Shown here: piece after piece, positions 40,547 to 53,835 of the stretch
Position numbering within the stretch: the stretch's first letter is position 1
Layout of the letters: every line of letters begins with the position of its first letter
Assembly: GCA_016779265.1 (NCBI GenBank)
Contig: JADHNY010000009.1
Location: 1-64,000, forward strand
From: Pirellulales bacterium
GTDB taxonomy: Bacteria; Planctomycetota; Planctomycetia; Pirellulales; UBA1268
Direction: 5' to 3'
DNA: 64,000 bases
Made by a program: the position numbers and the translations under genes
The notes under the pieces: model-generated
Databases searched by the model: none
What the model saw: only the letters and a program-made list of their open reading frames with translations
What the model was told of the DNA's origin: nothing

Positions 40547-41641
40547 TCAATCGAGAATGGGCAGGAGCGGCTCCGACACAGGCTGCGGACGGACTGGCTG
40601 CGGCGGGGCAGTAGGCACGCCACCGTCGTTCGATCCAAAGACCATCAGCCGCGCGGTGGCCAGCATGCCCCGCAGCGAGCCGAGCGATGCCTCGACGGCG
40701 GCCGGCTCGTAGCCGCAGTGCACCATGCAATCGGCACACTTGGGATTCCCACTGGCACGGCCATACGCATCCCAGTCAGTCTCTTCCATCAGTTCGCGGA
40801 AGGACGACACATACCCCTCGTCGAGCAGATAGCAGGGCTTCTGCCAGCCGAAGAGGTTGTAGGTTGGCGTGCCCCAAGGCAGGCACTCTAGGTCCCAGGC
40901 ACCCTTGAGAAACTCAAGGAACACCGGCGACTGATTAAACTTCCAGCTTCGCTTGGCCTTTCCCAGGATGCGGCGAAACAGACTCTCGGCATCATCACGG
41001 GCCAGAAAATGCTCCTGGTCCGGAGCCTTCGCATAGGAGTAGCCCGGCGAAACCATCATTCCTTCGACACCGAGGGCCATCACCTGATCGAAGAAGCTGC
41101 GGTACTTCTCGGGCGGAGCATCGGCAAACAGGGTGGAGTTCGTGGTCACCCGGAAGCCCGCCTCGCGAGCAGCTCGAATCGCAGAAACCGCCATCTCATA
41201 GACGCCCTCACGGCAGACAGCCGCATCGTGAATCTCACGTGGACCATCGAGATGCACAGAAAAGGCGAGATACTTTGAAGGCTGAAAGCGATCGAGCATC
41301 TCCTCGAGCTTCAAGGCGTTGGTGCAGAGATAGAGATATCGCTTGCGAGCCACGATGCCCTTAACAATGTCCACAATCTGAGGATGCAGCAGTGGCTCAC
41401 CTCCGGGGATCGAAACGACCGGCGCGCCGCACTCGTCCACGGCTCCCAGGCAATCGTCCACCGAGAGGTGCCGTCGCAGGATATCGTTGGGGTGCTGAAT
41501 CTTTCCGCATCCCGCGCAGGCGAGGTTGCAGCGAAACAGAGGCTCCAGCATCAGCACGAGCGGATACCGTTTATTCCCTGCCAGCTTCTGCGAGAACACA
41601 TGCCGCAGCACAGCGGCCATCTGGCCGAACGGAACTCCCAT
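40547..41641 (-). CDS. hpnH: HpnH, hopanoid biosynthesis radical SAM protein
   Basis: YPLVLMLEPLFRCNLACAGCGKIQHP (CxxxCxxC), VSIPGGEPLLHPQI, CMVHCGYEP; start overlaps shc stop (TGATG). Confidence 0.92.
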   Translation of the reverse strand: MGVPFGQMAAVLRHVFSQKLAGNKRYPLVLMLEPLFRCNLACAGCGKIQHPNDILRRHLSVDDCLGAVDECGAPVVSIPGGEPLLHPQIVDIVKGIVARKRYLYLCTNALKLEEMLDRFQPSKYLAFSVHLDGPREIHDAAVCREGVYEMAVSAIRAAREAGFRVTTNSTLFADAPPEKYRSFFDQVMALGVEGMMVSPGYSYAKAPDQEHFLARDDAESLFRRILGKAKRSWKFNQSPVFLEFLKGAWDLECLPWGTPTYNLFGWQKPCYLLDEGYVSSFRELMEETDWDAYGRASGNPKCADCMVHCGYEPAAVEASLGSLRGMLATARLMVFGSNDGGVPTAPPQPVRPQPVSEPLLPILD

Positions 41642-43881
41642 CAGACTGTCTCCTGTTCGGACAAGGTCATCGCTTCCCGGAACTTCGTGGCGAAGTTCGC
41701 CTCCCCGTCTGCCAGGTCATCAGAGAGCGTGCGGGCGAGGGATTGGAGCGGAAAGTAGATCGGATAGTAGTGGTACCGAAGGTAGAAGACCTTCGGGAAA
41801 CCTGTGCCGGTAAACGCCGTCTCGTGCCAGCTGCCATCGTCCTGCTGTTCCCGCACGAGCCAGGCCAGCCCGCGTCGGCATGCATCAGACTCTGACCGGT
41901 TGGCAGCCGCGAGGCCGGCGACTGCCCACGCTGTCTGTGAAGCCGTTACCTCACCTCGGCCAGCCCAACATGGATCTTCGTAGCTGCGTGGCGATTCCCC
42001 CCAGCCACCATCTGCCTGCTGGCACGACTCCAGCCAATCGATAGCACGAGTGATCAGCGGATCACTTGCCTCCACGCCGATCGAACGCAGCCCTTCAATG
42101 ACCTGCCAGGTGCCGTAGAGGTAGTTCACACCCCACCGGCCAAACCAGCTGCCGTTCGACTCCTGGCACTGCCGAAGATATGCCACCGCCCGGTCGACGA
42201 CAGGGTGTCCTGGCCGCAGCCCGACCTGCCCAACCGCCTCCAAGACACGCCCGGCAAGGTCGGGCGAACTCGGGTCGATCATCGCATTGTGATCGGCGAA
42301 GGGAACCTTACACAGCAGTTCCATCGTGTTGTCACGATCGAAAGCTCCCCAGCCGCCATCGGAGTTTTGCATCGCGCCGAGCCACTCGGTGGCCCTGGGC
42401 AGGCAGGCCGCAATCCGAGCCAGCCGCTCTGCGACTGCGGGCTGCAGATGAATCTTCAAACGCCGGCAGGCATGCCGGTAGTCAGAGAGGGCGAGCACGA
42501 CCATCGCCGTGTCATCAACATCTGGGTAGAAGCGATTCGCATACTCAAAGCACCACGCTGCCGGGGCCGCCTTGACCTGTTCACTCCAGTCACCCGGTGT
42601 GCGAATCTCTCGCTCGAGCAGCCAGTCAACAGCTCGCGCCAGGTGAGCATGCTCCACAGCTCCCTCCAGCCGCGTCGACTGACAGAGTGCCCGTATCGTG
42701 ATCGCTGTATCCCAGACCGGTGAATGACACGGCTCAAGCCGTGTCGAGCCATCCGGCTCATGCTCCACCAGTCGCTGCAGCCGCTCCCAAGCCCGCGAGA
42801 CCTCGGGGGATTCGTCGGAGTAGCCAAGGCATTTCAGTGCAATGATGCTCCACACCATTGGCGGGAAGATGGCTCCCAGGCCATCACTGTCGACGCACCG
42901 CTCCAGCATCCACTGCTCACACGCAGCGACAGCCCTCCGCCGCAGCGGCATCAGCCCAAGCGACTCGCACCACTTGATGCCCACATCCACAACACGGAAA
43001 AACTTCTCCCAGCCCCGAGCACGCACGCGTGGTGCCGCGTGGTGGCCTTCAGTGAAGAGTTCGGCGATGCCGCGTTCGGCCGGGACCTGCCGCTGTGGCT
43101 TATAGGTCCACATCAGTGACAAAGGCACAATCATCGTTCGCGACCAGGCCGACACACTGTGCAGGTTGATCGCCGACCATTTCGGCAGGAGCACGATCTC
43201 CGGAGGCACAGCCGGGCAGGCCGAGTAGGGCATCTGGCCGAGGAGCGCGAGATAGTACCTCGTGAAGCTGTTTACAGCCCACGGCCCTCCGAGCACACGA
43301 ATCGCCTCTCGGGCCCGCTGCATGGCTGGCTCATCGGGTGAGTGACCGGCCAGCTTAAGCACCAGGTAGGCCTTGACCGTAGCGCTCACTTCGGCAGGTC
43401 CGCCCGGGTAAATCGGCCAGCCACCGTCAGGAAGCTGCAAGGACCTGATTCGCTGCAGAGCACCGGCGACCTCCGGCCGATCGAAGCGATCCAGCCAGGC
43501 TAAGAGCAGGAGGTACTCTGTCTCAAGGATCGTGTCGCCCTCAAGCGCCGCCCGCCAGTGACCATCTGCATGCTGACGCGTGAGCAGCCAGTCAGTCACC
43601 CGACGAACGGCCACCTCACGAGCGGCATCGCTCGGGCCCAGTTGCGACTCCACCACAACGTCAGACGAGGTGTCCGTCGTCTTGGTCAGAAACGCCTCGC
43701 TCAGCCGCAGGCCACGATGGGGCCGCGTCATCACTGCGGCAGGGAGGCGTCCTTCCACGACGCGACGGCCTGTCGGCATCCGATCCGTCGCATCATCGCT
43801 GCGAACGCATCCCGGACCCGATGAAACATCCATGTCTCTTTTCCCGTTTCCAACGGCGATTCTGGCAGCAGGCGTGTCCAT
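41641..43881 (-). CDS. shc: Squalene-hopene cyclase
   Basis: DXDD motif in YPDVDDTAMVVLAL; repeated QW-like motifs (QNSDGGWGAFDRDN, QQADGGWGESPRSYEDPCWAG); start uncertain (43881 or 43833). Confidence 0.95.
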   Translation of the reverse strand: MDTPAARIAVGNGKRDMDVSSGPGCVRSDDATDRMPTGRRVVEGRLPAAVMTRPHRGLRLSEAFLTKTTDTSSDVVVESQLGPSDAAREVAVRRVTDWLLTRQHADGHWRAALEGDTILETEYLLLLAWLDRFDRPEVAGALQRIRSLQLPDGGWPIYPGGPAEVSATVKAYLVLKLAGHSPDEPAMQRAREAIRVLGGPWAVNSFTRYYLALLGQMPYSACPAVPPEIVLLPKWSAINLHSVSAWSRTMIVPLSLMWTYKPQRQVPAERGIAELFTEGHHAAPRVRARGWEKFFRVVDVGIKWCESLGLMPLRRRAVAACEQWMLERCVDSDGLGAIFPPMVWSIIALKCLGYSDESPEVSRAWERLQRLVEHEPDGSTRLEPCHSPVWDTAITIRALCQSTRLEGAVEHAHLARAVDWLLEREIRTPGDWSEQVKAAPAAWCFEYANRFYPDVDDTAMVVLALSDYRHACRRLKIHLQPAVAERLARIAACLPRATEWLGAMQNSDGGWGAFDRDNTMELLCKVPFADHNAMIDPSSPDLAGRVLEAVGQVGLRPGHPVVDRAVAYLRQCQESNGSWFGRWGVNYLYGTWQVIEGLRSIGVEASDPLITRAIDWLESCQQADGGWGESPRSYEDPCWAGRGEVTASQTAWAVAGLAAANRSESDACRRGLAWLVREQQDDGSWHETAFTGTGFPKVFYLRYHYYPIYFPLQSLARTLSDDLADGEANFATKFREAMTLSEQETV

Positions 43882-44096: not shown

Positions 44097-45359
44097 CTAC
44101 GTCTCGGCGAGAGGATTCTTCGCCGACCCCATCACCTCACCAGGCTGTTCGGCTGGCAACACGAGCCGAACGGAAGTCCCTTGCTCAGAACCTGACACGA
44201 GTTCCATGCGTCCTCCACAGGCCCGAGCGAGAGCCCATGCGTGCGAAAGCCCCACGCCCAAGCCGCGGCCCGCCTCACGTCCACAGTGAAAGGGATCAAA
44301 GACAACGGGCAGATCCTCTCGATCGATCCCGGGGCCGTCATCCTTCACCAGAATCGCCTGCAGCCCATCCTCTGAACTCGCGGCCAGCGAAACGGTGACC
44401 GTGCCAGCCTTCTGGGCAGCCTCAATGGCATTGAGAATCACTGCATGCAACGCCTCTGCAACCAGCTTGGGGTCCACCCAGCCCCAGACAGCGTCTGCTG
44501 GCACATCGCTTCGCAGCGTGAGCCCTTCGCCACCAGGCCGCTCACCGAGCGAACCAATCACCGACTCCACCAATGCAGCCAGGTCGACGCGTGCCGGCCT
44601 CGCGACCGGTGGCTTGGCGAAGACCATCAGCCCCCCGATCATGTCTCGGGCACGAAAGGCCTGGTCGACGATGGTTGCGAGCTTCCGGCGGCGTTGTGGA
44701 TCCGGCTCATCTCTCAGCAGCGACTGGCCTCGCGTCGCGATATTGGCCAGAGGGTTGTTGATTTCGTGCCCGGCGCCGTAGGCCAACTGCCGCACTGCCT
44801 CCAGCCGTGCATCGGCCAACGCTGCATCAAACCGTTCACGAAGCCCAAGGTGCTCGCGAAGCAGCCGAACAGCAGCGACGAGCAGTTCTGCTTCTGCCCG
44901 CCGATCCGCAGCAAGAGCCGCCAGCCGAAGGTCGCGACCAAATCGTGTCAGCAGATGCTCACCTCGACTGCGTCGGCCAGGGGATGTGTCGGCCTGACCA
45001 CCAGCGTCATGCTCGCCAACCGCCGTCAGCCACCGCTCAACCGCACACGCTGGAACGCCCAGATCCGCGACTGCCACCGCCAACGCATGCTGCAGGGAAA
45101 AGCCACCCTCGGGACGCCACGCAGTCAACGCGGCAGCCACAGCGACACACTCTGCTGTCGTGAGCTCAGCATGCTCAATCGGCAACTCACGCCCACCTGG
45201 CGGAGCTACCTCCCCAGGCGAGCGACACGCACCGCCCGGCACTGCCGCCACAGACGAGGCACCTTTCGAGGAGTCATCAAAAGACATGGTGCTCGAGGGC
45301 TCTTTCGAACCCCCGAGCACCAGCCAGGCACCCGTTGTTTCATCAGCGTGCTGCGTCAC
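44097..45359 (-). CDS. Soluble sensor histidine kinase
   Basis: AYGAGHEINNPLANIATRGQSLL H-box; LHAVILNAIEAAQKAG; VKDDGPGIDRED; GRGLGVGLSHAWALARACGG; no obvious TM segment. Confidence 0.88.
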   Translation of the reverse strand: MTQHADETTGAWLVLGGSKEPSSTMSFDDSSKGASSVAAVPGGACRSPGEVAPPGGRELPIEHAELTTAECVAVAAALTAWRPEGGFSLQHALAVAVADLGVPACAVERWLTAVGEHDAGGQADTSPGRRSRGEHLLTRFGRDLRLAALAADRRAEAELLVAAVRLLREHLGLRERFDAALADARLEAVRQLAYGAGHEINNPLANIATRGQSLLRDEPDPQRRRKLATIVDQAFRARDMIGGLMVFAKPPVARPARVDLAALVESVIGSLGERPGGEGLTLRSDVPADAVWGWVDPKLVAEALHAVILNAIEAAQKAGTVTVSLAASSEDGLQAILVKDDGPGIDREDLPVVFDPFHCGREAGRGLGVGLSHAWALARACGGRMELVSGSEQGTSVRLVLPAEQPGEVMGSAKNPLAET

Positions 45360-45418: not shown

Positions 45419-46006
45419 TCAGCCCCCGGCAGCCACCGATTCGATATCGAGCAGGCTGCAGATGCGATCGAGGAGCACCTCGCCCTCGAAGGGCTTCTGC
45501 AGAAACTCATTCGCACCCGACAACTTGAGGTCCTCAATACGATCCGGCTCACACATGCCCGAGATGCAGATGATCCGCACTTCGTCCATCGTGGAGTCGC
45601 TTCGCACACGTTGGCAAACCTCTTTGCCGTTGATATCGGGCAGCATGACGTCCAACACAATCAGGTCAGGACGATATTCCTTCACCATCATGCCGGCATC
45701 AAAGCCGTTATTCACACTTCGCACCTCGAAGCGGCCATCCCGCTCCAGCACGTCGGTGATCAGTTCCACCAGATCCTGGTCATCATCAACGACGAGGATC
45801 TTTCGCCGACCGCTCTCGAGCGCATCGGTTGGGATTCCGTTGTCACGCATGAACAGAAACAGCTGATCCCGAGGAATCCGGCGAAACCGGCTCCCTGGAA
45901 CACGAAATCCCTTCAGCTGTCCTGAGTCGAAGCAGCGAATGATTGTCTGCTGGCTGACCTTGCAGATCTTCGCCGCTTCGCCGGTTGTGTACACGGTCTT
46001 TTGCAT
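45419..46006 (-). CDS. Response regulator with N-terminal MerR/excisionase/BldC-like HTH and C-terminal REC domain
   Basis: MQKTVYTTGEAAKICKVSQQTIIRCFDSGQLKGFRVPGSRFRRIPRDQLFLFM then KILVVDDDQDLVELITDVL...DLIVLDVMLPDINGKEV...FLQKPFEGEVLL. Confidence 0.92.
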   Translation of the reverse strand: MQKTVYTTGEAAKICKVSQQTIIRCFDSGQLKGFRVPGSRFRRIPRDQLFLFMRDNGIPTDALESGRRKILVVDDDQDLVELITDVLERDGRFEVRSVNNGFDAGMMVKEYRPDLIVLDVMLPDINGKEVCQRVRSDSTMDEVRIICISGMCEPDRIEDLKLSGANEFLQKPFEGEVLLDRICSLLDIESVAAGG

Positions 46007-46354
46007 CTGCCGAACCACCCTCTCCCTAGCTGTGGTATCGCTAGTCTCTACGGCACGCTGACAGAAAACGGCTGACGGCAAACCTGCCGCCATTCCCAAC
46101 CACCGACACCCGGCAGTCGAGGGCTCCGTGATTCCTCAGCGTGTCTAGGCCTCCTTGTTGCCCAATGACACTGTTTCCCACGCGAACGCGGTGAAACCTG
46201 CCATACCGACGCTACGCCCATCATGGTGCAGAACTCCACACCAGTGAGGACAACCGGAAGAGATGGGTGGGCGTGGTCAGCGAAGGGACTCCTTTTCCCT
46301 TTCGCAACAATCGTTGCCGACTGCCAAGCTTGCCATCCTTGCCAGGCTGGCGGG

Positions 46355-46534: not shown

Positions 46535-47122
46535 TTAGCCCGCAAAAGACGGCACGACCTCAAGCAGTTCGACGGCAGGCCGGCCGTCGAGTCGGATTTC
46601 AGCAACGCGGCCATACGTCGGCTGCTTTGCCTTCATCAGCTCAGCAAACGCAGTCCCAGGCGTGAGTTCAAGCAGCTGCACAGCCTGCACGTCACGATGC
46701 ACTCCAGAGGCGATCAAGATTCGCCCCAGAGGCTCCTCCTTGCTCAGGATGGCCTCACGGGAGGCCGCCGGCAGGGGAGAGAGGTCGATCCGCACGATCC
46801 CGTACTGCACCACCGTACCATCAGCACGGGAAAGCAGAATTTCTCGGGCATAGCTGCCGGCGTTCGCACCGGCAGGCTCCGTCGTCCCCTCAGCAACCAC
46901 GGTCAGGTAAACAGGGCCGCCGTGATACCGCTCCATCGCCACCGTCATATGGCTGTTGTGTGCCAGCAGTCCGGCATAGGGCTCTGGCACCCGCTCGGCA
47001 TCAACTTCACGCAGCCCAGCGAAGTTCTCTTCCTTGCCGTGAAACAGCGAGATCAGGCTCTCGGCTCTGCACACCGCGTGGCCTGTGGACGAGAAAGCTT
47101 GAGCTGAAGACGGGTCGGCCAT
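46535..47122 (-). CDS. Hypothetical protein
   Basis: MADPSSAQAFSSTGHAVCRAESLISLFHGKEENFAGL...; start set at ATG 47122. Confidence 0.65.
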   Translation of the reverse strand: MADPSSAQAFSSTGHAVCRAESLISLFHGKEENFAGLREVDAERVPEPYAGLLAHNSHMTVAMERYHGGPVYLTVVAEGTTEPAGANAGSYAREILLSRADGTVVQYGIVRIDLSPLPAASREAILSKEEPLGRILIASGVHRDVQAVQLLELTPGTAFAELMKAKQPTYGRVAEIRLDGRPAVELLEVVPSFAG

Positions 47123-47217
47123 GGCTGGCTCCGGGGGGAGGAACGAACCCCGGCCAGTGTACCCGCTCTGTCTTCCGCCGCCTCGGCTGATCACAGGGGT
47201 CTGACACTGAAAACGAC

Positions 47218-49251
47218 TTACCCCGGCGACCCTTGCTCAGGCGCTGCAAGATCGAGCAAAAACTCCAGCACATCCCGCAAGCGAGGTAGGCAACACGTCG
47301 CCGCGGCCCGCAGGGCTTGCTGGCGATGCTCGCAGACCATCGCCTCCGCTGCGGCGAACACCTCCGCTTTCTCATAGAGACCGCGTGCCTCACGAAGTCG
47401 CATGCCCTCCTGCTGCAGGTCACTCGACGTCGAGGCTTGCGAGAGCGTCAGCAACCGCTGGCGATCTGGTTCTGAGAGCCGCTCCATCGCCGTTGCCCAC
47501 AGCACTGTCGGCCGGCCACCAAGCAGATCCCCGGCAACCTGCCGGAGGTTTTCCAGATCACCGTGCCAGTCTTTGAGGTCATTGAGAACCTGGAAGGCAG
47601 TGCCCACATGCAGGGCGTAGTTCTCAATCTGGCCCGCCTGCTCCGGATCGCACCCGGCAAGCCGCACTCCCATTTCCAGTGCGGCCGCGAACGCAGGCGA
47701 GGTCTTGAGCCCATAGATCTCCAGGGCCTCACGCGGACTGAGCCGCTTCTCCTGAGCATCCCTCCACCAGAGTTCGGCACCTTGGCCGCGAGCCAGTTCC
47801 AGATGAGCCCGGGACAGAATCGCCAGCAGATCCCGCGGCAATGCCAGATCGCTCCCCGGATCGTCCGCCACGTTTGGCAGACCGGCGATCACCCGATACC
47901 CAAGACCGATCAGGTAGTCACCCGCATTGATCGCCGTCGGCACACCGAACTCACGATGCATCGTGGGCCTGCCGTACCGCATCGCGTCATCGTCTTCGAT
48001 GTCGTCGTGAACAAGCGAGGCCTTGTGGAAAACCTCGATCGCTGTCGCCGCAGCCCTCGCCACCCCCCGGTTGGCCTTCGCGTGCGTTCGCACAGCACGT
48101 TGAGCCTCGACATCGGCTGACACCGCATCGAACGCGGCCAAGGCCATAAACGGCCTGAGGAACTTCCCTCCTTTGGCAAGAAAGTCGATGCCCAAGACAC
48201 TCGTGGCCGCAGCCGCGGAGGTGGTGCCGTGATCGCTCAAGCAGGCGGCTTCAGCGCTGACGACACCGATCTTCCCAAAGAGCTTCGCCAGTGACTCCCG
48301 CGTAAACATCTCAGCCGATTCACGAAGAAGCGGCAGATGGTCAGCCACTGGCGACACCGCGCCGCCGGCAACACCGAGCAGCCCAAGCACCCATTCTGCA
48401 TCGACCTGTTCGACCGCGCAGCCGTTGTGCGAGCCAGCCTCCGTGTTGACTGGTACCGCCGCAATCGGCATCGCGAAGGGCGGGAGCAGCGAAAACGCTT
48501 TTTCCAGTTCCTCAAGCGTGGCCACGCCCAGCACGCTGTCGTAGCGACCTCCGAGCATGCCTGCGATAGCCACTGCCGCCTCACGAGTGCTCGCCACCTG
48601 CCAGCCAGAGTCGTCTGCGGCAGAGGCAAGCGTTGCATAGACACATTGCGGACCACAGGTCCGTGGAGTTCCCACCGTGTCAACAGAAGCCCCACAGCAG
48701 TCGGGCAGCAGCAGCAACCGACGACCACCAGGCGTGGTGAGCTGATCTCGCCAGTATGCCGTCACCAAAGCCACCATCGTCCAGCCAACATGCTCGGGAC
48801 GTCCGCCGGCCCGGCGTACCACATCCCCGGCAGCAGCCCTCAGGCCCGCCGGTGTAGACACCTCTTGGGGAAGTGCTTCTGCCCGCCAGACCGCGGCGAC
48901 GTCCGCTGAAATCGCATGCAACCGGTCACGAAGCATCTTCGGCTGCGGCACCCGCACGGCAGCGGGATCATGGGGGGCAGCATCGTCGGACGTCGAACTC
49001 AGCGATGGCTTCGGGCTGCGTAGCGGCACACCGCCTGTTGGGTCAGAAAATCGATCGAGATGCGAGGCAGGCTGCTGCACGTGGCATTCTCCGTCGGTGT
49101 GTCCTGAGGCAGGCGACTGAATGCCCTTCGCAGCCAGCGACCGTGCTCTCAGAGAGAACCGCAGATCTGCGGCCGTGGTAACACCGCAACGCCTTCGGAA
49201 TCCGCAGAACCGTGGCACTCGGTGTTGGGCCTGTTCATCGGAAGAAAGCAA
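47218..49251 (-). CDS. Polyprenyl diphosphate synthase with N-terminal DUF116-like Cys-rich domain
   Basis: C-terminal trans-prenyltransferase: VHDDIEDDDAMRYGRPTMH and HVGTAFQVLNDLKDWHGD. N-terminal LLLLPDCCGASV...TCGPQCVYATLASAADDSGWQVAS...YDSVLGVATLEELEKAFSLLPPFAMPIAAVPVNTEAGSHNGCAVEQVDAEWV resembles DUF116. Start uncertain; GTG 49080 or ATG near 48936 are likelier. Confidence 0.85.
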   Translation of the reverse strand: MLSSDEQAQHRVPRFCGFRRRCGVTTAADLRFSLRARSLAAKGIQSPASGHTDGECHVQQPASHLDRFSDPTGGVPLRSPKPSLSSTSDDAAPHDPAAVRVPQPKMLRDRLHAISADVAAVWRAEALPQEVSTPAGLRAAAGDVVRRAGGRPEHVGWTMVALVTAYWRDQLTTPGGRRLLLLPDCCGASVDTVGTPRTCGPQCVYATLASAADDSGWQVASTREAAVAIAGMLGGRYDSVLGVATLEELEKAFSLLPPFAMPIAAVPVNTEAGSHNGCAVEQVDAEWVLGLLGVAGGAVSPVADHLPLLRESAEMFTRESLAKLFGKIGVVSAEAACLSDHGTTSAAAATSVLGIDFLAKGGKFLRPFMALAAFDAVSADVEAQRAVRTHAKANRGVARAAATAIEVFHKASLVHDDIEDDDAMRYGRPTMHREFGVPTAINAGDYLIGLGYRVIAGLPNVADDPGSDLALPRDLLAILSRAHLELARGQGAELWWRDAQEKRLSPREALEIYGLKTSPAFAAALEMGVRLAGCDPEQAGQIENYALHVGTAFQVLNDLKDWHGDLENLRQVAGDLLGGRPTVLWATAMERLSEPDRQRLLTLSQASTSSDLQQEGMRLREARGLYEKAEVFAAAEAMVCEHRQQALRAAATCCLPRLRDVLEFLLDLAAPEQGSPG

Positions 49252-49303: not shown

Positions 49304-50605
49304 TCAGGAGGCCGCCGTCTGCTCTTGCGGGGGGGAAGGCTCGAAGAAGCGGTGCAGCAGGCTGTCGACCTGCAAGAGCCCCTGCCGCGTCAGCCGGGGC
49401 ACTCCGTCAGTGACCGTCAGATGCCCTTCCTTCTCAAGCCCCCGCCAGATGTCAGTCCACTCTGTGAGCAGATCGACGCCAAACTTCTCCCGCAGGCGAG
49501 AAACGTCCAGCCAGCCACGCTTGAGCTGCAGAATCATCTCACGGATCAGCCGTTCACGCGGAGCAGGCGTCATCCCGCGAGCGATCGGCAGTGTCCCAGC
49601 TTCAACCGCTTCCAGGTAGGCATCCCAGTGCGGCTCATTCTGGTAGTGCAGCCCCGAGAGGTGCCCAAAGCTCGCCACGCCGAGCGCGATTAGGTCGCTG
49701 CCTTCCCAGAGCATGTCGCGATACCGGAAGGCAACCCGGGAGGGATCCTTGACCAGGGTGTAGCCGCTGGAGACGGCGTATCCTGCGTCCTCAAATCGAC
49801 GAAATGCTCGGTCGACCCAGGCCCGCTTCGTCGGCCAATCAGCAACCGGCGCTGGCACGCCGCTTTCTTTCCAGTCGTGGACGAGCGTGGTGTTCAGCGG
49901 CAGTTCCATCTGATAGATGGTCACGCTGTCAGGCGCCAGCTCAAGGGTCTTGCTCACAGTCGCATCCCACGACTCGTCGGTTTCTCCCACCATGCCAGCG
50001 ATCAGGTCGACGTTGGTGTTGGGAAAACCAGCCGCGGCAATCCAGTCCCAGGCACGCATGATCTCAGCAGAGAGGTGTGCCCGGCCATTGGCCTGCAGAA
50101 TATCGTCGTCGAAGTTCTCCACGCCGAGCGAAATACGGGTCATTCCCAGTTTTCGCAGGGCCTTGACCTTCGGCTCCGACAGCGTTCCCGGCTCACACTC
50201 GAATGTGACTTCCTCAGCGTTGTCCCAACCGAAGCTGTTGTTCAGTCCATCTACCAACCGCTCCAGCTGCCGCACGCTGAGAAACGATGGAGTGCCGCCT
50301 CCAAAGTACACGTACTTCAGTTCGCGGCCAGCCACCGCAGGGCTCGCGGCGGCAAGCTCCGCCTCTTTGACCAGCCCCTGCGTGTACCGCTCGACGTCGC
50401 CGGCGGCCTTGTCGGTGTAGACCCGGAAGTAGCAGAACTTGCACCGTTTGCGACAGAACGGGATGTGCAGGTAGAGCCCGAGCGGTACGTGGGCGGGCGG
50501 TGCCGCAAATGCCGCCCGCACCGCAGACACCGAGTCGGTGTTCCAGCGATCAAACGGTGGGTAGTTGGAGACAAAATAACTTCCGGGTTCGGTTGTCTCG
50601 CTCAT
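49304..50605 (-). CDS. HemN/coproporphyrinogen oxidase-like radical SAM protein
   Basis: LGLYLHIPFCRKRCKFCYFRVYTDK; YVYFGGGTPSFLSVRQLERLV; RISLGVENFDDDILQANGRAH; HemN C-terminal domain. Confidence 0.9.
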   Translation of the reverse strand: MSETTEPGSYFVSNYPPFDRWNTDSVSAVRAAFAAPPAHVPLGLYLHIPFCRKRCKFCYFRVYTDKAAGDVERYTQGLVKEAELAAASPAVAGRELKYVYFGGGTPSFLSVRQLERLVDGLNNSFGWDNAEEVTFECEPGTLSEPKVKALRKLGMTRISLGVENFDDDILQANGRAHLSAEIMRAWDWIAAAGFPNTNVDLIAGMVGETDESWDATVSKTLELAPDSVTIYQMELPLNTTLVHDWKESGVPAPVADWPTKRAWVDRAFRRFEDAGYAVSSGYTLVKDPSRVAFRYRDMLWEGSDLIALGVASFGHLSGLHYQNEPHWDAYLEAVEAGTLPIARGMTPAPRERLIREMILQLKRGWLDVSRLREKFGVDLLTEWTDIWRGLEKEGHLTVTDGVPRLTRQGLLQVDSLLHRFFEPSPPQEQTAAS

Positions 50606-50679
50606 GGCTCTCCTCAAACACCGCTTGTCCGTCGATCGCCGGCTGTCGTCGGCTTGAAAACGGTCGCCAGCACCATGCC

Positions 50680-51729
50680 TCAGCCTGCGGTCATCCCGCG
50701 AGCAGCTAGCAGGTCATCAAAATCACGCAGGTGGTACGACACATTCGCCTTGTCGAGCACTCGGCACAGGCCTCGCAGGGCGATCCCCATGCCGTCTGGG
50801 CCGCTCGTGCCGCCAAACTGACCGCCCCCACGCACGTGAGGCTCCAGGTCGACAAACACGCCGGGAATACCTCGTCGCTGCAGCCGTTTCTGCAAAGAAG
50901 GCAGCATGGTTTTGAGATCGGCAAAAATCTTCGCATGGTTTGCCGAACCGCGGTCAGCCGGCACAAAGTTGCTCAGAGCGTCTTCATCGACATGGCCGCC
51001 CTTCGCGTTCTTGCTGCCAGCAGGCCGCTTTGGCGACCGATAATCCTTCACGTGCACCCAGCCCAGGCCGGGCTTCATCGCCTCCCACTGCTTGTAGACC
51101 TCAGCGGGCGAGAAGCCCTGCACAATGAGGTTGGCCGCGTCGAACACAAGCACCAGTGCAGGGTTGTTCACCCGGCGATGAATCTCAGCAAGCAGATGGC
51201 CGGTGCGGCCGATCAGATTGGCCTCCACTTCAAGGCCGAAGGTCAGATCGGAGCGATGACAGGCATCGGTGATCTGACCGATTTGATCGACGGCCTGTTC
51301 GAGATAGTCCTCAGGATTGGCATCACGCGGTGGATAGAACGAGAAGCCGCGAATGAGCTTTGTCTCAAACGCGTGTGCTCGCTCGCAGGCTTTGACGACA
51401 TCCTTGGCGAGATACTTCTTGAAAGGCACGTAGCGATTCGACGTGCCATCCTCGACGTCAACGAGCTTCACCTTGCCGATCGGCGAAGCGATCGACGCAA
51501 CGTTCAGGCCGTAGGTGTCTTCGAGGTGTCGCAGCTCCTGGATTTCTCGCAGCGTGAGATCCATCACGTTTTTCACGCCGCGGCCAAGGTCAACGAACCG
51601 CAGGCTGTAGTATTCGAGCCCGAGTGCGGCCAGCGCCGAGAACTGCTCGACAGCGGTGAGATGAAACGCAGCCTCATCGGCGAGGGCAGAGAGCAGGATT
51701 CCACGCGACGTGGCCATTGATTTCTCCAA
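50680..51729 (-). CDS. Sugar phosphate isomerase/epimerase, xylose isomerase-like TIM barrel
   Basis: GLEYYSLRFVDLGRGVKNVMDLTLREIQELRHLEDTYGLNVASIASPIGKVK...VLVFDAANLIVQG...WVHVKDYRSP. Confidence 0.82.
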   Translation of the reverse strand: MEKSMATSRGILLSALADEAAFHLTAVEQFSALAALGLEYYSLRFVDLGRGVKNVMDLTLREIQELRHLEDTYGLNVASIASPIGKVKLVDVEDGTSNRYVPFKKYLAKDVVKACERAHAFETKLIRGFSFYPPRDANPEDYLEQAVDQIGQITDACHRSDLTFGLEVEANLIGRTGHLLAEIHRRVNNPALVLVFDAANLIVQGFSPAEVYKQWEAMKPGLGWVHVKDYRSPKRPAGSKNAKGGHVDEDALSNFVPADRGSANHAKIFADLKTMLPSLQKRLQRRGIPGVFVDLEPHVRGGGQFGGTSGPDGMGIALRGLCRVLDKANVSYHLRDFDDLLAARGMTAG

Positions 51730-51958: not shown

Positions 51959-52363
51959 TTACGCCGTTGGCCCGAGCGGATCTCCAGCAGGGTGTGACAC
52001 GAGCAGTTTGGAAGAGACCCCACCTCGAGGCGTAAAGACCGCAAGCAGAGTCATCTTCCTCGGCGTGACCACCGCCATCAGATCGTCAAAGATCCGATTG
52101 GAGACATGCTCGTAGAAAATTCCCTGATTGCGAAACGACTGCAGATAGAACTTGAGGCTCTTCAGTTCGACGCACAGTCGATCGGGGACATACCGAAACG
52201 TCAGGCATCCGAAGTCAGGCTGTCCCGTCTTCGGGCAGACCGACGTAAACTCCGGACAGACGATCTCGATCTGATAGTCACGATCGGGAAACTGATTTTC
52301 GAACGTCTCCAGCAGGCTCCGATCAGGGCCTGAGGCGATGTGATCTGAAAAAATGTTGCTCAT
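51959..52363 (-). CDS. queF: NADPH-dependent 7-cyano-7-deazaguanine reductase QueF
   Basis: [53 protein letters not shown]; start ATG 52363 or 52372. Confidence 0.95.
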
Positions 52364-52378
52364 GCGAGGCATTGTGCC

Positions 52379-53113
52379 ATGACGTCTGCTGCGAAAGAAG
52401 ATGGGCCTCCCGCCCCACTGAAGACCGCGGTTGTTTTGCTCTCGGGCGGCCTCGACTCCACCACCGCGGCCGCCTGGGCGGCCAGCCAGGGCTGGAGGTT
52501 GGCTGCACTCTCGGTGGACTACGGACAGCGGCACCGGGTTGAACTCGACTGCAGTCGCAGAGTCGCCGCATCCCTCGGAATCACAGATCACGTGATCCTC
52601 ACGATCGACCTCGCTGCCTTCGGGGGTAGCAGCCTGACCGACTCTTCAGACACGGTACCGAAAGGCCGCACCGCCCACGCGATCGGCGAAGGCATTCCCT
52701 CCACCTATGTACCGGCCCGCAACACGGTACTGCTGTCTCTCGCCCTCGCCATGGCAGAGACGAGGCAGGCTGAAGCGATCGTGATTGGTGTCAACGCACT
52801 CGACTACAGCGGCTACCCGGACTGTCGCCCCGAGTTCATTGACGCGTACAGAAAACTCGCCGCACTCGCCACTAAGGTGGGTGTGGAGGGCAACCCGATC
52901 GACATCCTTGCCCCACTGCAACACCTCACCAAAGCGGAGATCATCCGCCTCGGCTGCTCACTCGGCGTCGACTACGGCCAGACCACCAGCTGCTACGATC
53001 CGCATGCCGATGGACGCCCCTGCGGCAGCTGCGATGCCTGCCTGCTGCGTGCCAACGGCTTCGCAGCTGTAGGGGTGCGTGATCCCGCGGTCACACCACG
53101 TGTTGAAGACTGA
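52379..53113 (+). CDS. queC: 7-cyano-7-deazaguanine synthase QueC
   Basis: [18 protein letters not shown], Cys cluster [25 protein letters not shown]. Confidence 0.96.
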
Positions 53114-53124
53114 GGAGCTCCGCG

Positions 53125-53835
53125 GTGAAGGTTGCCGAACTCTACCGGTCGCTCCAGGGCGAGGGCCTCCTCGCAGGCACACCGAGCACATTCCTCAGAA
53201 CCAGCGGTTGTAATCTCCGCTGCCGCTGGTGCGACACTCCGTTCACGTCCTGGGAGCCCACCGGTGACGAACGTTCTGTCGGCGAGGTCGTTGAGGAGAT
53301 CGCTGCGCTGGGCTGCCGGCATGTGGTGGTCACCGGCGGTGAGCCCCTGCTGTTTGTGGAGGTGATGCGGGTCTGCGAGCAGCTGCGAGCAACTGGCGAG
53401 CATGTCACGATCGAAACTGCTGGCACCGTGTTGCCGCCGGAGATTCCTGCCGCTGAGCTCGCGGACCTCTTCTCGATCAGCCCGAAACTCGCCTCCTCTG
53501 CACCGCCGCCCGACACGCCAGGAGACTGGCACCGACGACACGAAGCCGCCCGCCGCCGAGATGACATCGTCGCCACCTTGCTTACCGCGGCCAACTATCA
53601 GCTGAAGTTTGTGATCGACCGCCGAGACGACCTCGACGAGGTCCAGCAGTGGCTCAACGACATTGATCGGCAAGTCCATGTCGACCGCAGTCGTGTGTTC
53701 CTGATGCCTCAGGGCGTTCGCGAAGACGACCTGGCCGAGACGGCCCGCTGGCTTCAGCCCGCCTGCCAGGCCCACGGCTTTCGATTCGCTCCGCGGCACC
53801 ACCTCAGCTGGTACGGCCACACCCGCGGCACCTGA
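53125..53835 (+). CDS. queE: 7-carboxy-7-deazaguanine synthase QueE
   Basis: ELYRSLQGEGLLAGTPSTFLRTSGCNLRCRWCDTPFTSWE; VVVTGGEPLL. Confidence 0.95.
   Translation: MKVAELYRSLQGEGLLAGTPSTFLRTSGCNLRCRWCDTPFTSWEPTGDERSVGEVVEEIAALGCRHVVVTGGEPLLFVEVMRVCEQLRATGEHVTIETAGTVLPPEIPAAELADLFSISPKLASSAPPPDTPGDWHRRHEAARRRDDIVATLLTAANYQLKFVIDRRDDLDEVQQWLNDIDRQVHVDRSRVFLMPQGVREDDLAETARWLQPACQAHGFRFAPRHHLSWYGHTRGT

Follow-up and report, generated by a model that had tools for sequence, protein, structure and literature searches.

We find that the DUF116–polyprenyl synthase fusion encoded in the window (by which we mean the whole 64,000-nucleotide stretch analyzed here, from a Pirellulales bacterium) is most likely, to judge from its sequence, an ordinary prenyl synthase with an attached DUF116 domain that has lost most of its cysteines. 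The open reading frame occupies positions 47,218–49,251 on the reverse strand and encodes 677 amino acids from a TTG codon. Two features that emerge from our sequence comparisons are new: a gene module that extends across the phylum and is tied to the intact form of the fusion, and a single clade that holds the degenerate copies.

Both halves of the protein can be assigned. We know of no function for DUF116. The corresponding profile, PF01976, matches residues 148–289 (48,385–48,810, reverse strand) with an E value of 3e-5 and 24.0 bits against a Pfam cut-off of 25, and rises to 27.9 bits with the entire open frame as query. Intact relatives with the same architecture score 104–142 bits (E ~1e-29 to 1e-41 in the order and the phylum), and the paralogue in the window's own genome is also among the strong matches. 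Because these relatives match so strongly, the similarity in the window, as judged by profile searches, is not due to chance and the DUF116 assignment is sound, as the initial annotation had supposed for the N-terminal half. The identity of the C-terminal half as a polyprenyl synthase is certain (PF00348, E 1.9e-45, residues 358–608; 47,428–48,180, reverse strand), which bears out the further claim that the two domains are joined in one reading frame. Periplasmic-binding-protein profiles also matched DUF116 weakly (best E 0.004), with the score scattered over several weak segments, and we set them aside.

The architecture itself has been published: in 2015, Makarova et al. described a DUF116–polyprenyl synthetase fusion, Psta_0175 of Pirellula staleyi, and suggested that DUF116 binds metal and transfers electrons (PMC5898192). 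Psta_0175 has the same domain pair as the window protein and comes from the same bacterial group, but most of the conserved cysteines have been lost in the window copy; moreover, unlike the present analysis, that paper gives no module, no co-occurrence, and no degenerate clade. The flavodoxin-like fold proposed there for DUF116 was unconfirmed by our fold search, in which the predicted structure of the domain (pLDDT 85) gave no significant match in the PDB (best E 0.047). Stand-alone DUF116 proteins (COG1852/arCOG02078, e.g., MMP0162) share the PF01976 family with the window protein but have no attached prenyl synthase; the archaeal ones are described as having six or more cysteines and transmembrane segments at the N terminus (PMC5898192). 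In two members of the phylum, we noted by eye stand-alone DUF116 genes (L196:8453–8917 and L197:8755–9225) lying between fmt-like and rsmB-like genes, a neighborhood that is unlike that of the fusion and in which nothing pointed to lipoate or prenyl metabolism at either locus.

The fusion is widespread. Matches were found in every searched genome of the window's family and in most families of the order. Across 119 genomes drawn from the phylum, DUF116 was present in 40, and 20 of the 30 loci that we fetched were fusions; the loci of Blastopirellula marina and Rhodopirellula baltica hold intact ones. The window's genome (3.9 Mb) encodes a second two-domain copy, 35% identical, on contig C92 and a third gene that consists of the synthase only.

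To define the cysteine pattern, we read it from an alignment of 33 fusions and from a larger alignment. Intact fusions follow LPxC1...C2PA...FGLxC3xxC4GxC5...GVAC6...DC8...VD, in which only C7 varies. Each of the 78 named Pirellulales-type fusions whose sequence spans the domain has the seven fixed cysteines, as do 18 of 18 phylum fusions and 11 of 11 B-type rows (one gene being counted twice); 10 A-type copies of the order, some of which overlap with the named records, have all eight. In the window's family, only three of the seven remain fixed (C1, C4, and C5); C2, C3, and C6 are lost, as is C8 in most members, and the canonical CGxC has become CGPxC, which lengthens the C4–C5 spacing by one residue. 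The initial annotation had pointed to an LPxC...CxxxC...HxGC pattern, and the first two elements of this pattern hold: C185 (C1, in LPDC; 48,697–48,699, reverse strand) and C199 and C203 (C4 and C5, in CGPQC; 48,643–48,657, reverse strand) occur without exception in the 30 family orthologues. The third does not. In HNGC (H275–C278; 48,418–48,429, reverse strand), the cysteine, although present in the window copy itself, recurs in 5 of 30 orthologues and the histidine in 2 of 30, so that by this alignment the HxGC element is no conserved feature of the window's family. The same annotation was to be abandoned if DUF116 profiles failed to match and the cysteines proved unconserved; a profile match was found, but of the four cysteines in the motif, one is indeed unconserved in orthologues.

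The loss of cysteines appears to trace to one lineage. Partial or full loss is seen at L046, L048, and L051, and at L062 the DUF116 domain is no longer recognizable while the synthase remains. All degenerate copies, together with the domainless L062, form one clade (tree support 90/98) nested within the A-type clade (96/96), and the window's family sits on a long stem in the fusion tree. Within that family, dN/dS is 0.10–0.30 for the DUF116 half and 0.11–0.25 for the synthase half; by this measure, the DUF116 domain is under purifying selection, and for this family we reject the idea that it is simply decaying in the window copy. Over residues 24–95, where dN/dS could be computed, it was 0.58–1.08, with no clear constraint. 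Because this segment is nearly unconstrained and both domains are constrained, the true start of the fusion probably lies downstream of the TTG, near residues 60–100.

The motifs of the synthase half are those expected of its clade. The first Asp-rich motif, DDIED (residues 416–420; 47,992–48,006, reverse strand), is intact and conserved, and the second reads NDLKD (residues 557–561; 47,569–47,583, reverse strand). The departure from DDxxD that was remarked on initially is real, and since NDxxD is found in 23 of 23 aligned A-type fusions vs DDxxD in 10 of 10 B-type paralogues, the sequences identify the Asn as a clade character that predates the cysteine loss rather than an oddity of the window copy. 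Compared with trans-prenyl diphosphate synthases of the PF00348 family at large, the window protein shares the profile match and the first DDxxD and differs in its NDxxD second motif and N-terminal DUF116 domain. The best PDB match of this half is a GGPP synthase (1wy0), the nearest structures being ordinary GGPP and octaprenyl diphosphate synthases; the best NCBIfam match, a family 2 encapsulin cargo polyprenyl transferase (NF041169), falls far under its cut-off.

The intact fusions belong to a defined set of genes. B-type copies and most copies in the phylum lie in an operon, conserved across Planctomycetota, that encodes a GcvH-like protein, a CobW GTPase, a ferredoxin, a radical SAM protein, the fusion, and two terpene-cyclase-like toroid proteins, c5 and c2. 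Of these toroids, c2 has the DxDD motif in 107 of 107 copies vs 0 of 43 for c5. The GcvH-like carrier retains the lysine that corresponds to the lipoylation position. Module carriers at L045:13916–14392 and L053:4511–5047, which read IESSKAES and VEGFKAVSD, respectively, are distinct from the ordinary GcvH of the genome. Among 59 related genomes, strong DUF116 (E < 1e-28) and the module ferredoxin (E < 1e-20) are found in the same 30, and the remaining 29 have neither (Fisher p 1.7e-17, relatedness ignored; the counts are not independent events, as 36 of the 59 genomes are of one family). The module radical SAM gene is present in 29 of the 30 genomes with intact DUF116, being missing in G039, and the A-type carrier occurs in only ten genomes, all of which have an intact A-type DUF116. 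Operon linkage or co-loss alone does not account for the association because the parts can lie far apart: in the single-contig genome G040, ~1.5 Mb separates the fusion from the radical SAM gene, and in G049, ~0.28 Mb separates it from the carrier and ferredoxin. The window's genome has the intact system on contig C92, and some members of its family have no module at all. The fusion at L050:8824–10581 in G051 is an exception with respect to the carrier: it has all eight cysteines, yet an A-type GcvH is lacking and the radical SAM homologue is only 39% identical, so that this may be a third version of the module. Our literature searches returned no description of the module, and terpene-type clusters that include polyprenyl synthetases as well as terpene cyclases have been mentioned for planctomycetes (PMC8303584).

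We propose that the product of the window gene is a working trans-prenyl diphosphate synthase and that its DUF116 domain derives from one with seven cysteines that probably bound an Fe-S cluster and had a presumed role in electron transfer. The ancestral form would be kept in the C92 paralogue and in most fusion-bearing Planctomycetota, where the DUF116 cysteines would serve the radical SAM/ferredoxin part of a module that also comprises the lipoyl-type GcvH-like carrier, the CobW GTPase, and the DxDD class II terpene cyclase; the cyclase would process the prenyl product, with the order of the pathway and the nature of the product likewise conjectural. The lineage of the window copy would then have parted from the module, leaving the B-type copy to serve it in the window's genome, and four of its seven cysteines would have disappeared, with selection continuing to maintain the fold and the other three. 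Because the lineage left the module and lost cysteines with the fold still selected, the DUF116 domain in the window is now most likely structural or interaction bearing, perhaps with a simpler metal site; such a site is possible given the invariance of C1, C4, and C5 in the family. As a whole, this account (a working synthase, a DUF116 domain from an Fe-S module, a separated lineage, and structural reuse of the domain) seems to us a reasonably likely one. More tentatively, and short of an even chance in our estimation, the module may constitute an undescribed isoprenoid pathway of Planctomycetota in which the synthase-tethered DUF116 passes electrons between ferredoxin, radical SAM protein, and lipoyl-type carrier to modify a terpene cyclized by the divergent class II cyclase, the window gene being a branch that was freed and reused. 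With its cysteines tied to a defined group of genes found across the phylum, DUF116 becomes open to functional tests in cultivated planctomycetes such as Blastopirellula marina and Rhodopirellula baltica, and the module points to an uncharacterized terpenoid; the window copy offers a natural cysteine-loss control.

The initial annotation suggested a different role, in which DUF116 would sense metal or redox state and regulate the synthase to which it is joined, the window copy included. The invariance of C185, C199, and C203 in the 30 family orthologues and the purifying selection on the domain are consistent with such a role, but most of the window's family has lost four of the seven canonical cysteines, L062 keeps its synthase without a recognizable DUF116, and the intact cysteine set tracks the radical SAM/ferredoxin module and not the synthase. 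We consider this reading improbable, and our comparisons lend no support to regulation of the synthase by DUF116. From the sequence, a sensing role is least likely in the window copy in particular because C2, C3, C6, and mostly C8 are gone and the C4–C5 spacing is altered.

The gene neighborhood suggests two more specific roles for the synthase. The order in the window's family, all on the reverse strand in the window where we give coordinates for enzymes and U, is a xylose-isomerase-like TIM barrel protein (50,680–51,729), upstream of the radical SAM gene and conserved in the family; a HemN-like radical SAM protein (49,304–50,617), the immediate upstream neighbor within the family and also found in some of the order; the fusion; a partner that we call U (46,535–47,194, with a candidate ATG at 47,122); a response regulator; a histidine kinase; a squalene-hopene cyclase (41,641–43,881); and an HpnH-like radical SAM protein (DUF3463; 40,547–41,641). 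With the last two lying 4–7 kb downstream and syntenic with the fusion in all examined family loci, the window copy might supply farnesyl diphosphate for hopanoid or squalene synthesis. However, the neighbors in the rest of the order are U and a divergent DxDD cyclase and not a true squalene-hopene cyclase, and the persistent neighbor is U rather than the cyclase; we therefore regard this role as rather doubtful. In the rest of the order, the divergent cyclase, c2, lies ~2 kb upstream of the fusion in 76 of 80 named loci, and U, ~1.3 kb downstream, is near the fusion in 73 of 80 (distances from midpoint to midpoint).

The persistence of U raises the alternative that synthase and U form a supply pair, providing polyprenyl diphosphate and 4-hydroxybenzoate for a prenylated aromatic compound. 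When U alone was the query, sequence searches of Pfam and the PDB gave no match, and its fold was found only through structure prediction: the model (pLDDT 87.9) resembles the DUF98/Rv2949c chorismate lyase family (Foldseek match to 2nwi, E 5e-8, TM 0.64). PF01947 matches 2 of 21 U orthologues, weakly (best E 0.006), and one Arg and one Glu are invariant among the orthologues, at what we take, by eye, to be the positions expected from UbiC. Against this, the predicted fold of U is common to GntR effector domains, and of the three UbiA-family genes in the window's genome, whose identities we judged by eye, one has menaquinone-type neighbors, one is heme O synthase-like, and the third shows no evident connection to U. 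A supply pair thus strikes us as unlikely, though conceivable, and we retain the reading of the window copy as an ordinary prenyl synthase with a cysteine-depleted DUF116 domain.

Other neighbors of the window copy are also maintained in the family. The response regulator (45,419–46,099) has an N-terminal helix-turn-helix (HTH_17) and at least 90% identity across the family, and the adjoining histidine kinase (44,097–45,359) is far more variable. A group of queuosine genes (51,959–53,835), comprising a QueF-like gene (51,959, reverse strand) and QueC (52,379, forward strand), is kept upstream of the cluster in the family; a radical SAM protein in this group (53,125, forward strand) may be QueE.
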